Shown here: piece after piece, positions 5,183-35,096 of the stretch
Numbering within the stretch: the stretch's first letter is position 1
Layout: every line of letters starts with the position of its first letter
Assembly: GCA_029225085.1 (NCBI GenBank)
Contig: JAQXVU010000036.1
Location: 1 to 37,454 of the forward strand
Direction: 5' to 3'
Length of the DNA: 37,454 nucleotides
Source: Eggerthellales bacterium
GTDB taxonomy: Bacteria; Actinomycetota; Coriobacteriia; Coriobacteriales; Eggerthellaceae
Notes under the pieces: model-generated
Seen by the model: only the letters and a program-made list of their open reading frames with translations
Database searches by the model: none
Told to the model about the DNA's origin: nothing
Translations under genes and position numbers: made by a program

Positions 5183-5331
5183 GTTTCTCACCTCTCGTTA
5201 ACTCATATGTGTAAGGACTCGGTGGGGCATTCTACCTGCGCCATGTTTTATTGGAAGAGCCTTTACCAGGTATCCATAAGCTTCACTGGGATTACATAAG
5301 AAGAGGTGCCTGAATGGAAGGTTGTGGAGGG

Positions 5332-5404
5332 GGCTGCTGGGAGGGCCTCGCCCGGCCCCACCCGCTTCGCTCTGGGAAGGCCGTGCGCGACCCCCCCAGC
5401 AGCC
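5332..5404 (-). repeat. Hairpin repeat element, copy 1
   Basis: Arms GGCTGCTGGG (5332-5341) and CCCAGCAGCC (5395-5404) pair perfectly. Between them lies a 29-nt core at 5354-5382 that, read on the minus strand (it begins GGCCTTCCCAGAG), is identical to the core of copy 2 at 6561-6589. The outer arms of the two copies are unrelated in sequence. The rest of 5183-5503 shows no gene. Confidence 0.8.
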
Positions 5405-5503
5405 TTGGGCACCCTTCCAGTTCGGCTGATGCCCTGTTTGAAAGTTGTTCGAGGGGGTCGTGTAACGCTTTAGGTTCGTACCGTATTGGGGAAACTGTCT
5501 TGG

Positions 5504-5533
5504 TAAAGAAAGAGTCCCTCGGGCGAGGGACTC
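5504..5533 (-). terminator. Terminator of the secreted-protein gene
   Basis: GAGTCCCTC (5512-5520), loop GGGC and GAGGGACTC (5525-5533) form a 9-bp stem. On the minus strand it is followed by TTTCTTT. It sits eight bases past the stop codon at 5541. Confidence 0.85.
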
Positions 5534-5540
5534 TGGGTGA

Positions 5541-6368
5541 TTAGCTTTCGTAGTAGTTGGCGAGCTTCTTGGGAGACTTTTTCAGGGGAGCTCCTGCGGA
5601 ATAGTAGTAGCTTCCATGCTTCGTGTAAGGATAGATCTTGGTGGATTTGATCTTTGCCGTTGCGGTTGCAGGATAGCCATAGTAGTTGAACTGGACATAT
5701 CCGTTGATGCTGCCGGAAGTTTTTTTCTTCCTGTCGGAAGCAATAATTTCGTTAGAGGAGTTGGTTATTCCCAGCCAGGTGACGCTGAGGCGTACCTTGG
5801 CTGTTGCGACGTACCCCTTTGCGCCCTTTGTGGTGTGCCAGTAGAAGCTGGTGTTAGAGCTCCGATTTCCCTTATAGGGCTTCAGAGCCGTCCAATAGGT
5901 TTTTGCTTTGGACGTGGTGGTTTCGGAATAAGTTCGGGTTTTGTATTCGTAGTCAACCCAGTAGCCATCTTCGTCGAGAACGTCGATCTCTTCGTCTATG
6001 CAATAGCTGACCTTGGATTTGACTTTGTATTGGTACTTGGTATTTGGCTTCAGGTTCTTGACGGTGACGTATTTGTAATCATTGCCACCGTTGTTGTGAA
6101 GGGTCTTGATTTTCTTCCAGCTTCCAGAGCCCTTCTTTTGGTACAGATACGTGGTTACTTTGATGTTGTAGCAATCGTCGTCGGAATAAAGCGCATCGAG
6201 CTTGGTGTAGTCGATCGTGACGTAATTCCTGTTATAGCCAGCTTCGGTCTGCTTTGCGATATACGGCCCGGAGAACGCGAAGGCGCTTGTGGCGAGCACG
6301 AGGGATGCTGCCAAGGTTGTTATGAGCATGGCGAAAGCGAGCCATGTCTTATTCAGTGCTTTACTCAT
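5541..6368 (-). CDS. Secreted protein with fibronectin-type-III-like region, function unknown
   Basis: 275 residues from ATG 6366-6368, preceded by AAAGGGG at five bases; seven extra upstream codons are open but lack a ribosome site. The N-terminus is a classical Sec signal peptide: a basic start, a hydrophobic core (FAMLITTLAASLVLATS) and an AFA cleavage site. The mature protein is rich in Lys, Tyr, Ser and Thr. It contains a YKYVTVKNLKPNTKYQYKVK stretch typical of a fibronectin type III strand pair, and a second block around YVATAKVRLSVTWLGITN that may be another such fold. No catalytic motif, LPXTG anchor or transmembrane tail is seen. Two lines counted by eye are 40-47% G+C, well below the ~70% of a sampled sbcC line. 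The gene is flanked by inverted copies of a hairpin element, which suggests acquisition or mobility. Confidence 0.7.
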   Translation of the reverse strand: MSKALNKTWLAFAMLITTLAASLVLATSAFAFSGPYIAKQTEAGYNRNYVTIDYTKLDALYSDDDCYNIKVTTYLYQKKGSGSWKKIKTLHNNGGNDYKYVTVKNLKPNTKYQYKVKSKVSYCIDEEIDVLDEDGYWVDYEYKTRTYSETTTSKAKTYWTALKPYKGNRSSNTSFYWHTTKGAKGYVATAKVRLSVTWLGITNSSNEIIASDRKKKTSGSINGYVQFNYYGYPATATAKIKSTKIYPYTKHGSYYYSAGAPLKKSPKKLANYYES

Positions 6369-6537
6369 GATGTCCCCTTTCTCTTGCACTGGTGGTTAGC
6401 TTAGCTGTTGTGGGCAACGGTTACTTTGACCTGGGGTTTTAGGCCGAATAACTATGTGAATGGATGTTTGGAATCGCATGCGACAGGTGGCTTCCGGCGT
6501 ATCGGCGCGAGTGAGGTCTGTTCGCTATGGCAAGTGC

Positions 6538-6612
6538 GGGGTTGTCGGAAGGCCGAGTCTGGCCTTCCCAGAGCGAAGCGGGTGGGGCCAGGTCCGGTTC
6601 TTCCGACAACCC
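6538..6612 (+). repeat. Hairpin repeat element, copy 2
   Basis: GGGTTGTCGGAAG (6538-6550) and CTTCCGACAACCC (6600-6612) form a perfect 13-bp stem around the 29-nt core at 6561-6589. That core is the exact reverse complement of 5354-5382. It lies 36 bases beyond the sbcC stop. It has no T-tract, so it is not a standard terminator. Confidence 0.8.
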
Positions 6613-6647
6613 TCAGCGGTTTCCAATTGCGAACGCGGAATCTGGTC

Positions 6648-9600
6648 TTACGCTTCGATACGGATAGAGGATCCTTGGCGGCTGCGGGTGACGAGAATCT
6701 TCTTGTCGATGTTGGCCTTCAGCTCTTCCACATGGCTGATAATGCCGATGAGCTTGTTGCCGGTGGAAAGGTCGGCCAGCATGCTGATGGCGTTGCCCAG
6801 GGACTCTTGGTCGAGCGATCCGAAGCCCTCATCGATGAACATGGTATCGAGCTGAATGCCGCCAGCGTGGGCTTGCACTACGTCGGAAAGACCCAGGGCC
6901 AGCGCCAAACTTGCTTCGAAGCTCTCGCCACCGGACAAGGAGGAGGCGTCGCGAGCCTGACCGGTGTAGTTGTCTACTACATCTAGGTTCAGGCCGGTTG
7001 CGCCCGAGGACTTGCCCGTCTCTATGTGGCGCTGCAGCTCGTAGCGACCGCTGGTCAGGGGCTTGTAGCGGCGGTTGGCGGCTTCGATGATCTGGTCGAA
7101 GTAGATGCTCTGCACGTAGGTCTCGAAGGAGATGCGGGCGGTGCCGGTTTGCTTGCCATTGGCGATGTCGGAGAGCTCGCGGACGGTGCCGTACTCGGCC
7201 TCTAGGCTCTGGCTCTGCTTCTGCAGGGCTTGAGCTTTGCTGAGGCACTGCTGATTGGTGCTGATGCGGGCGGAAATCTGGGCGACTTCTTCGTTGAGCT
7301 TGTTGCCCCGCTCATGGCTGGCAGCCTGCTTTTCCCGCTCTTCCTGCAGATTGGTGGAAGGAGCCTCTGCGATCTGCTTGGCAATCTGATCGATCTGACC
7401 CTGGGTAACGGCTAAGGAGTTGGTGGCGGCATCGAGGGCCTTCTTGGCGGCATCGCGAGCGGCTTTCAGCTGATTGGCCTGGTCCTGGGCCTGCTGAGCC
7501 TTTTCGGCGGCTTCGGCTTCACCGGTGAATTCCAGGTTTTCCTGCAGCTGGGCAACCTTTGCTTGGGCAACCTGCAGGGCGGCGGAGGTCTGGGCGACCT
7601 GCTCCTTCAGCTCCTGAACCCTCGCAGTGGCCTGAGCCTCGGTTTTCTGGGCGAGCTCCTGCTTCTTTTGCGCGGTATCGAGAGCCTGAGCGTCGGACTG
7701 GGCTTGTGCTCGGGCGGCAGCTGCCTGATTGGCGATTTCTTGGGCTGTGGCGAGGGCCTCCTTTGCCTGCTGCAGGGTGCCTTCGTCGAGGTCGGCAGCA
7801 AGGGTCTGAGCCTTGGCGCCTGCCTGAGCTGCGGCGGTCTTGCAAGCGGATGCGTCGTCCTGAGCTGCGGCCAGGGCCTTTTGGGCAGCCTTGGCATCTC
7901 TGTCCGCTTGCTGAGCGTGTTTCTGGGTGAGCTCTAGGAGCTTCAGCTGCTCCTGTGCCTGGTCACAGCGCTTCCGGGCAGCCTCTTGTTCTTCGGTGGC
8001 CTGTTGAATATCGCGGGAGATCTTCTCCTGGTCGCCGTGTTCTGCCTGGTGATCGGCCAGGGCTTTCTCCCTGTCTTCAAGGGTGGCTTTCTTGGCGGCT
8101 GCGGCCGCAGATGCCTCGTCGGCGGTTGTCCGCAGCTGCTCGGATGCAGCCTGCGCGGCCTTCACTTCGGCATCGGTGGGCACGGACTCAGGATGGCAGG
8201 CAGGGGAGGGATGGGAGAGGGAGCCGCAGACAGGGCAGGGTGCGTTTTCCTCGAGCTTTTCGGCCAGGGTGCCCGCGGCGTCTTCCATCTGAAGGGTTTG
8301 CATGCGGATGACCAGATTCGCCTGGGTTTCGTAGGCCTCTTTCGCCTGGGTGAAGATGGTTTGAGCGACGACGGTATCCTGGCGAGCTTGCTCGCAGCGG
8401 CTCTGCAGCTGCTGCTGGGCGTTCAGAAGCGCGGTAAGGTCGCTGGTCTTCTGCTGTGCGGCGGCAAGGGCGTGCTTTGCCTCGGTGGCCTGAACGGGGG
8501 CATCCTGCAGGGATTCTACCTGGGCTTGTGCCTCCTGCAGGGCTTTGGCTGCCTCGTCGCTTCGGGCTTGGGCATCCTGCTGGGACTTCTGAGCTGCAGC
8601 GAGCTTACCTTGGGCATCCTGTGCGGCGACCTGAGCTGCTGCTGCGGCTTCATGGCGCTCTACCTGGGATTTCGCCTGGGCAAGGTCGTTGGCGGCGCGG
8701 TTCTCGGCAGCCTTTGCCTCCGCCAGAGCCACTTCGGCGCCAGCCAGGCTCTGCAGGGTGTCGTTTGCCTGGGCCAGGTCGGCGGCAGCTTGCTCCTGGG
8801 TCTTTACGGCGTCCTTAAGGCCGGCCTGCAAAGAGGTGAGTTGGGTCTTGGCGGCACGTGCATCCTTTTGGGCTGCGGTGAGGTTGGCGTAGTTGGGCAG
8901 GGTGGAGCGAATCGCGGCGGCCTTGTCGCGCAGCTGTGCCTGCTCGTCGTCGCGGGCAACCTGCTGGTCGAACTCCTTTTGCAGCTGGGGCAGGGAGCCC
9001 TGCAGCTCTTTGGCCTGCTTGTTCAGTTCGCTCAGTTTGGCCTGGGATGCCTGCAGGGATTCGGCCTGGGTGATGCGGGCCTGGCAGGCGGACCAGATGG
9101 CGCGCTCCTGGTTGGTCTTTTCTTCCAGATCTGCCTTAGTCTGCTCATCGTCGGTGATTTGCAGCTGCAGCTGCTCGGCCAGCCACTGGCTCTGTACGGC
9201 ATCGCCGCTGATACGACGCTGATTCTCCTGGTCGCGGGCGCCGTCTGCGGGGAAGGAGGCCTGTTCTGCCACCAGGCGCAGGCTGTCCTTGGCAGCGCGA
9301 TAGTCCTTGTCGAGGGCGGTGCTGCGCTGCAGGAGCTTCTCCTGGAAGGTCTCGTACATGCGGGTGTCGAAGAGCTTGCGGAAGATCTCGGCGCGCTCCT
9401 TGGTCTTGGCGGTGAGCAGACGGCGGAACTCGCCCTGGGCAATCATGACAATCTGTGCGAACTGGTCCCGGTCGATGCCCAGCAGATTTTGCACGGCCTG
9501 CTTAACCTGGTTGTCCTTGCTGACCACCTTGCCATCGGGGTATTCCAGCTCGACCTTTGCGGCTACGTTTGCCAGATCGCCGCTCTTGGTTTTGCGCTTG

Positions 9601-9917
9601 GCCTGGCGCTGGTACTGGGGGTTGCGGCGGATGCGGTAGTCCTTGCCCTGGTAGGAGAACCACAGCTCGACATAGGTCTCGGCGGCGGGGTCGGCGAAGT
9701 GGCTGCGCAGGGTGCTGATGGCGCGGGCGCTGTTCTTGTCCGAGCTAGAAACGTCGCCGAACAAGGCGTAGGAGATGGCGTCGAAGATGGTGGTCTTGCC
9801 GGCACCGGTGTCGCCGCAGACCAGGTACAGGCCCTGGGAGCCCAGCTGGTTGAAGTCGATGGTGGTCTTGCCGGCGTAGGGACCGAAGGCGGAGATGGTG
9901 AGTTTCGTTGGTCGCAT
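6648..9917 (-). CDS. sbcC: Exonuclease subunit SbcC (Rad50-like SMC ATPase)
   Basis: 1089 residues, ATG start with AAAGGAG seven bases upstream. SbcC is the ATPase arm of the SbcCD complex, which opens hairpins and trims protein-blocked or broken DNA ends. The N-terminal head has the P-loop GDTGAGKTTIFDAISYALFG and an R-loop (LRSHF). Long Ala/Gln/Glu/Lys coiled coils fill most of residues 200-890. They are interrupted near residue 560 by a zinc-hook CPVCGS that dimerises two molecules. The C-terminal head carries the ABC signature SLSGGESFEASLALALGLSD (about residue 990) and Walker B/D-loop MFIDEGFGSLD (about 1020). The gene follows sbcD after 145 bases in the same direction. Antisense frames over the coiled coil are long only because of its low-complexity GC-rich codons. 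Confidence 0.97.
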   Translation of the reverse strand: MRPTKLTISAFGPYAGKTTIDFNQLGSQGLYLVCGDTGAGKTTIFDAISYALFGDVSSSDKNSARAISTLRSHFADPAAETYVELWFSYQGKDYRIRRNPQYQRQAKRKTKSGDLANVAAKVELEYPDGKVVSKDNQVKQAVQNLLGIDRDQFAQIVMIAQGEFRRLLTAKTKERAEIFRKLFDTRMYETFQEKLLQRSTALDKDYRAAKDSLRLVAEQASFPADGARDQENQRRISGDAVQSQWLAEQLQLQITDDEQTKADLEEKTNQERAIWSACQARITQAESLQASQAKLSELNKQAKELQGSLPQLQKEFDQQVARDDEQAQLRDKAAAIRSTLPNYANLTAAQKDARAAKTQLTSLQAGLKDAVKTQEQAAADLAQANDTLQSLAGAEVALAEAKAAENRAANDLAQAKSQVERHEAAAAAQVAAQDAQGKLAAAQKSQQDAQARSDEAAKALQEAQAQVESLQDAPVQATEAKHALAAAQQKTSDLTALLNAQQQLQSRCEQARQDTVVAQTIFTQAKEAYETQANLVIRMQTLQMEDAAGTLAEKLEENAPCPVCGSLSHPSPACHPESVPTDAEVKAAQAASEQLRTTADEASAAAAAKKATLEDREKALADHQAEHGDQEKISRDIQQATEEQEAARKRCDQAQEQLKLLELTQKHAQQADRDAKAAQKALAAAQDDASACKTAAAQAGAKAQTLAADLDEGTLQQAKEALATAQEIANQAAAARAQAQSDAQALDTAQKKQELAQKTEAQATARVQELKEQVAQTSAALQVAQAKVAQLQENLEFTGEAEAAEKAQQAQDQANQLKAARDAAKKALDAATNSLAVTQGQIDQIAKQIAEAPSTNLQEEREKQAASHERGNKLNEEVAQISARISTNQQCLSKAQALQKQSQSLEAEYGTVRELSDIANGKQTGTARISFETYVQSIYFDQIIEAANRRYKPLTSGRYELQRHIETGKSSGATGLNLDVVDNYTGQARDASSLSGGESFEASLALALGLSDVVQAHAGGIQLDTMFIDEGFGSLDQESLGNAISMLADLSTGNKLIGIISHVEELKANIDKKILVTRSRQGSSIRIEA

Positions 9918-22506: not shown

Positions 22507-22566
22507 CGATGCGCCACCTGTCGGCATGATGCGACTCGCGCCCTCCGCGCGAAGTGTATGTGGCAA

Positions 22567-22645
22567 CTTCTGTCCGTTTGCCTGAGAGTTTCGGCTCTCG
22601 CTAAGCCTTGCCCCGTCGGCACCTGTTAATCAGGTTCTCCAGAAG
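22567..22645 (-). ncRNA. Glycine riboswitch aptamer
   Basis: Read on the minus strand the segment runs GCTTCTGGAGA, then a small hairpin (ACCTGATTAACAGGT), then GCCGACGGGGCAAGGC, a short stem, then ACTCTCAGGCAAACGGACAG. These match the conserved core blocks of gcvT-type glycine aptamers, and CTTCTG/CAGAAG closes P1. Only one full aptamer is seen. A GCCGACAGGTGG stretch further downstream may be a vestige of a second (ghost) aptamer. It controls the AGCS symporter; for transporters such switches usually turn expression off when glycine is bound. Confidence 0.9.
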
Positions 22646-22794
22646 CCCGCTCCACCACCGGTTTGCCCTATGCATTCCGACGGCTTCATTACGAACAATG
22701 GCACTTTACCATCGTGGCGATAGAATGGTATTTCCAACGGGTTAACGAGTAGAATTTCGCTGTGTGTGGTGATTCTGAGGAGAAGGAGGCTTAT

Positions 22795-34633: not shown

Positions 34634-34927
34634 CAGAATCGGCGTTGAGATGCAGAAACGGCGCCTTAGTGCAGAACTAAGTACAAAAAAATCCGGTCGT
34701 TTTACAGAAAAGGCGCCTCAGTGCAGAAGATCGGGCTCATCGTGAAGGCGCGGCAAAAGCTGCATCGTGAAATAGACCGATCGTTGAATTGAGTTGCCAG
34801 GACAGAATCTCGGCTTGGCTCCACATCGTCAAAGTTTTGTCCCTCTTCGTGCGCGATGAGATTGCGGAGGTCAGGTGTTCTGAGATTCTGTCTCTGCACA
34901 AACTTCTGCACTGAGGGGCTGTTTCTG
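34634..34927. repeat. Cluster of 24-bp repeats with 19-bp overlap and one inverted copy
   Basis: Copies at 34634-34657, 34653-34676 and 34705-34728 share CAGAA-x2-GGCG-x2-T-x-AG-x2-CAGAA. The first two share their CAGAA ends. A reversed copy (TTCTGCACTGAGG, then CTGTTTCTG) is at 34904-34927. The whole stretch 34560-35096 is AT-richer than its surroundings. Short minus-strand frames here (for example 34702-34911) are not convincing genes. Confidence 0.7.
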
Positions 34928-35096
34928 TTTTTGAGGTCAAAAAAGCTGCATGTGGCATTTCTTCGTCTCTGTCGCGAGGAACCCCTTGAGAATTCTGGAG
35001 TCTTTATCGGCTGTAGGGCTGCTTACCTGGAAAACGCTGGTCTTCGGACGCGTATTCTTTTCGTTCAGAAAACTTGCTCTAATTGACTTTTTCACG

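Follow-up and report, generated by a model that had tools for sequence, protein, structure and literature searches.

The two hairpins found on either side of a predicted secreted-protein gene in the window (the whole stretch of 37,454 nucleotides analysed here) are members of a dispersed family of about 30 copies, and do not form a local pair. This family is probably a lineage-restricted, REP-like stem-loop repeat, which is non-autonomous, has been multiplied to about 30 copies and is kept mainly as a 3'-end structure. The fixed apex, the compensated arms, the placement at gene ends, the lack of copies in divergent gaps and the occurrence in one genome only support this reading, and the multiplication itself is an inference from copies that are nearly identical although their sites are unrelated. 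The features of the region are collected in Table 1.

Table 1. Position of the two window hairpins, their parts and the adjoining genes.
Feature	Position	Strand	Description
Hairpin copy 1	5331-5405	+	Left arm about 5331-5353, right arm about 5383-5405; antisense to each adjoining gene
Covariance-model match, copy 1	5326-5415		E 1.4e-13
Copy 1 outer stem	5332-5341 with 5395-5404		10 bp, perfect
Copy 1 arm pair enclosing the 10-bp stem	5332-5357 with 5379-5404		26 nt, 85% complementary
Copy 1 29-nt core	5354-5382	+	Loop CCCGCTTCGCTC closed by CCA/TGG pairs; GAA bulge; GGCC inner stem
Ordinary intrinsic terminator of the secreted-protein gene	5510-5535	-	Terminator scan; independent of copy 1
Orphan gene, predicted secreted protein	5541-6389	-	282 aa from GTG
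Covariance-model match, copy 2	6529-6617		E 7.7e-15
Hairpin copy 2	6539-6612	-	On the sbcC strand; foot about 35 nt past the sbcC stop codon
Copy 2 outer stem	6539-6551 with 6600-6612		13 bp, perfect
Copy 2 29-nt core	6561-6589	-	
sbcC, exonuclease subunit	6648-9917	-	Copy 2 in its 3' region

Direct reading and a repeat search agree with the preliminary description in that the core of copy 1, GGCCCCACCCGCTTCGCTCTGGGAAGGCC, is the exact reverse complement of the core of copy 2, and both perfect outer stems that it reported, one of 10 bp and one of 13 bp, are present in the sequence. In window shuffles, the expected number of matches to a 23-nt piece of the core at three mismatches or fewer is 0.00, and the match between the two cores is far beyond chance. 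Single-strand folding of the window copies is better than that of nearly all shuffles, with z values of -3.2 to -5.0. The stem sequences had been considered unrelated; this is refuted by the full arms, which show 81% complementarity from one copy to the other along 52 nt, and alignment with other genomic copies shows that the arms of both window copies derive from one arm type, GTCGGGAGAACCGAGTCCTGGCC.

A search of the organism's own genome with the core, allowing up to three mismatches, gave 20 matches, and 0 with the reversed control pattern, while a shorter pattern gave 28 matches. The first covariance model, built from 24 copies, found 29 copies in this 1.93-Mb genome, and the second, with a hand-drawn structure, found 31, one of which, C34:6601-6691, duplicates another match on its reverse strand. 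Two copies are suspect: at C70:28 the sequence of the right arm known from window copy 1 runs as far as the end of the contig, probably through assembly overlap, and C44:3664 shows two arm types joined. The earlier suggestion of a family of elements is thus borne out by dispersed copies (20 by core, 29-31 by covariance model), and the search of genome and relatives proposed along with it gave about 30 copies within the organism's own genome but not a single one in the other genomes of the order. The hairpin family was absent from 394 other genomes of the order, which represent 123 genera and include none of the same genus, and the covariance model found it in 0 of 137 other genomes within the bacterial family, which comprises 48 of these 123 genera; these large scans ran with Infernal's stricter filters, which very divergent relatives could escape. 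Furthermore, the exact core had no match in GTDB r220 or IMG/VR, the hairpins matched no described Rfam family at gathering or permissive thresholds, and a literature search on such repeats in Coriobacteria found nothing relevant.

From the centre outward, the apex shows a 12-nt loop, CCCGCTTCGCTC, three SCA/TGS pairs and a GAA bulge on the 3' side. Outside the apex an inner stem of 4-7 bp gives way to internal loops, beyond which lies an outer stem 8-13 bp long, and the whole hairpin spans about 66-75 nt. The loop and the bulge are nearly invariant among copies; the arms vary with compensation and fall into two main types: A, GTCGGGAGAACCGAGTCCTGGCC, and B, GGGCCNCCGAGAAARCTCTCGCATCC. Inner-stem variants are GGCC/GGCC, ATCC/GGAT, GTCC/GGAC and GCCC/GGGC, and the compensated changes in other copies include C-G to G-C and GGCC to ATCC/GGAT. 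Covariation of the outer arms, a check raised by the preliminary description, was found: pairing is seen in 89.2% of the arm cells but in 33-46% after sliding of the partners, and both sides have changed in 64 cells, where shuffles give 20.8 +/- 3.4. The structure was drawn from the tested sequences, which is a bias in its favour, but the excess over the slid controls and the number of double changes go beyond that bias.

If a single RNA strand were under selection, the departures from Watson-Crick pairing should contain more G-U than A-C. The outer helix shows 18 G-T and 13 A-C cells, and the inner stems show 0 G-T and two A-C among 192 cells; wobble asymmetry gives no signal of RNA-strand selection in either of them. 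The lack of a G-U excess over A-C is compatible with a DNA hairpin or with correction of the arms by template switching. In addition, in the flanks 36-75 nt from the core complementarity is higher in matched than in mismatched pairs (0 of 5000 permutations), so the palindromic symmetry extends past the family consensus. The outer flank sequences differ between copies, and shared repeat arrays give part of this outer symmetry.

The gaps between genes were classified with a retrained gene caller, counting those with called genes on both sides, and background gaps were taken from the copy-bearing stretches sampled around the hairpins. The 19 copy-bearing gaps are distributed as follows: 11 are convergent, eight are tandem and none is divergent. 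The other gaps of the same stretches comprise 23 convergent, 184 tandem and 33 divergent. Most copies are solitary and adjoin unrelated genes. Of the 22 copies that have a facing gene end, 17 are in sense orientation to the nearest one (p = 0.017), and 16 of these 17 lie 41-201 nt past the stop codon of the facing gene; five copies, copy 1 included, are antisense, and four copies are found without any facing gene end. An additional intrinsic terminator was predicted at one of 16 gene ends with a sense copy, at three of six with an antisense copy and at 42 of 142 other ends, a weak contrast between sense and other ends (Fisher one-sided 0.036, two-sided 0.071). A T-rich stretch past the foot (at least five T in seven) is found in only two of 24 copies, and an ordinary intrinsic terminator is ruled out by the missing U-tract in the other 22.

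In the window, copy 1 is located beyond the secreted-protein gene's own terminator, and at the sbcC end no terminator was found besides copy 2. The sbcDC operon is present in four other genera, where the DNA behind sbcC is unrelated. One of these stretches, L214 (G012), shows unrelated perfect hairpins behind the sbcC of another genus at about 9600-9900, such as GACGGCTTTTGCGC...GCGCAAAAGCCGTC, which perhaps belong to a separate palindrome family there. The window also contains a glycine riboswitch aptamer, at 22560-22652 on the minus strand.

According to the favoured reading, the hairpin would spread within one lineage as a non-autonomous palindrome, and its folded apex, with loop and GAA bulge, would be the recognition feature of an enzyme which is lost or was not found in the genome. 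Surviving copies would be mainly those located where they are harmless, or those that serve as the hairpin of a transcript 3' end, in which case a sense copy may replace the normal terminator or shield the 3' end of the mRNA. No match to a Y1 transposase (PF01797) was obtained in the own genome, with positive controls, although a gene could have been missed in an assembly of 91 contigs; a reverse transcriptase (PF00078) gave no match in it either. Both were rejected as the driver since they are absent from the genome. The RNA role in this reading has against it the T-rich stretch after two of 24 copies only, the lack of any sign of RNA-strand selection and the weakness of the terminator contrast; the antisense orientation of copy 1 and four other copies also speaks against the reading.

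A second explanation, which we consider rather unlikely, is that the hairpins are purely selfish or formerly mobile palindromes with no host function. Their location at gene ends would then result from the loss of insertions from promoters and genes, and arm pairing would persist because transposition acts on the hairpin in single-stranded form. The absence of divergent gaps among the 19 that bear copies, the mosaic association with other intergenic repeats and the nearly complete Watson-Crick pairing of inner stems, which a DNA hairpin favours, are consistent with it, but it predicts neither the sense bias nor the scarcity of other terminators at sense copies, and a candidate enzyme of Y1 or RT type is absent.

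The distance past stop codons and the sense bias, together with the single additional terminator at 16 sense ends and the constant loop and bulge, would also suit a useful cis-acting structured RNA, either an unusual terminator or a stabiliser of the mRNA 3' end, copied to many genes with mobility as an incidental property. We regard this as unlikely: the T-tract is missing in 22 of 24 copies, G-U is not in excess over A-C, five copies are antisense and four lack a facing gene end, and the structure is conserved in no relative.

It is improbable that the arms are matched by mutation and not by selection, through fold-back template switching in replication, which would copy one arm from the other and let palindromes grow and remain perfect around a conserved seed. 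Double changes of the inner stems without wobble intermediates point to such a process, as does the complementarity of the distant flanks in matched pairs, even though the flank sequences vary from copy to copy; nevertheless, the GAA bulge and the inner internal loops persist where correction should erase asymmetries, and shared repeat arrays account for part of the outer symmetry. Quite improbable, in our judgement, is a further reading in which the 21-nt apex is conserved and fold-back copying, primed from the hairpin itself, rewrites flank from flank, so that each insertion would build arms of its own and give nested, locus-specific palindromes beyond the consensus.

The gene between the hairpins starts more likely with the ATG at 6368, which is preceded by AAAGGGGAC, than with the GTG. 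Its GC content of 0.483 is the lowest among 227 genes in the sampled stretches (mean 0.596, sd 0.029), so the gene is indeed AT-richer, as had been noted. The protein shows no match in Pfam or NCBIfam and no relative in 59 other genomes, and the gene is plausibly acquired or an orphan. An acquired or movable unit had been suggested for this gene, but a movable or invertible cassette carrying this gene is very improbable: the exact inverted cores on both sides and the low GC content and lack of relatives of the gene favour it, whereas the arms are self-matched within each copy, copies are mostly solitary, about 0.5 pairs within 1.2 kb are expected by chance from 29 copies in 1.93 Mb, and copy 2 belongs by position to sbcC. 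Exchange at the cores would pair the arms of one copy with those of the other; as both are self-matched, no such exchange has taken place after the last time the arms matched. Nothing ties the secreted-protein gene to the hairpins, and the pair is two independent copies.

The usual mark of REP-like repeats is a conserved foot; a Y1 transposase also defines one large group of them. The family described here is a variant of REP-like repeats that falls outside the RAYT-associated REPs, since it agrees with the gap preference of REPs and with the description of stem-loop containing sequence (SLS) families, and it fails in the GTAG, size and transposase features. Most REPs occupy convergent and unidirectional gaps close to 3' ends (PMC3733652), and the distribution of copies over 11 convergent, eight tandem and no divergent gaps shows the same placement as RAYT-associated REPs. 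As in the REP/BIME systems with RAYT (TnpAREP), the elements are short intergenic palindromes in tens of copies, placed at gene ends and in convergent gaps, with a mismatch or bulge in the stem and in mosaics with other repeats (PMC3733652, PMC8266576). Unlike them, GTAG is found in 0 of 24 aligned copies, the hairpin measures about 66-75 nt instead of 20-40, the conserved part is the apex and not the foot, and the Y1 transposase is absent from the genome. TnpAREP enzymes read a foot tag plus stem irregularities and sometimes loop bases (PMC8266576), and the apex-centred conservation is comparable only to this reading of stem irregularities and loop, not to that of the foot tag.

The CGTC-tagged REPs, which include the Neisseria dRS3 and the rickettsial RPEs, are also palindromes that lack an associated transposase gene (PMC3733652). 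The motif CGTC is present in 14 of 24 copies, many of class A, while nearly all class B copies and both window copies lack it; in contrast to those REPs, it lies here mostly inside the arm and not in an unpaired end tag, and the stems are far longer. A survey which listed 67 previously undescribed SLS families, defined by sequence clustering in 40 genomes (PMC2267715), deals with genome-specific, multi-copy intergenic repeats with a common predicted structure, and the likeness to our family is one of description (PMC2267715). The hairpins also resemble MITEs in being non-autonomous, multi-copy, palindromic and intergenic. In a MITE one expects conservation of the terminal repeats; in this family the centre is fixed and variation is greatest at the outer ends, and no target-site duplications were seen by eye at the hairpins. 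Mitochondrial double-hairpin and other hairpin elements are dispersed, apparently mobile and restricted to single lineages; the likeness to them is by description, and they differ in belonging to organelle genomes, whereas a single hairpin is found here.

Other repeats were observed in the same genome. Part of another dispersed repeat, also intergenic and about 310 nt long, lies at window 34641-34960; it has 20 matches in the own genome, and its copies are about 70% identical to one another. Composite noncoding repeats of about 1 kb were found at L182:7751-8772, L184:11526-12428, L186:8448-9724 and L181:7027-8303; they start with a type A hairpin and hold the inverted motif CCCCGGTAAATGACC / GGTCATTTACCGGGGAATCC, and several of them reach contig ends. 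Furthermore, L179, L181, L186 and L194 contain short arrays of GAGGGCTCGCGCGATGCCGCACCCCGC-like units directly upstream of type A hairpins. Tandem hairpins of different arm type, 67 nt apart, are located at L187:5834-5921, and the end of a related acyl-ligase-like gene at C12:84548 also bears a hairpin copy. As copies are present at both acyl-ligase-like gene ends, the gene end may have duplicated with its hairpin.

This family is open to testing, since a small genome contains about 30 copies of it and two of these are only 1.2 kb apart or less. Its restriction to one lineage and its fixed apex with compensating arms, in a genome with neither Y1 transposase nor reverse transcriptase, prompt one to ask by what means palindromes of this kind spread and what brings them together at gene ends.
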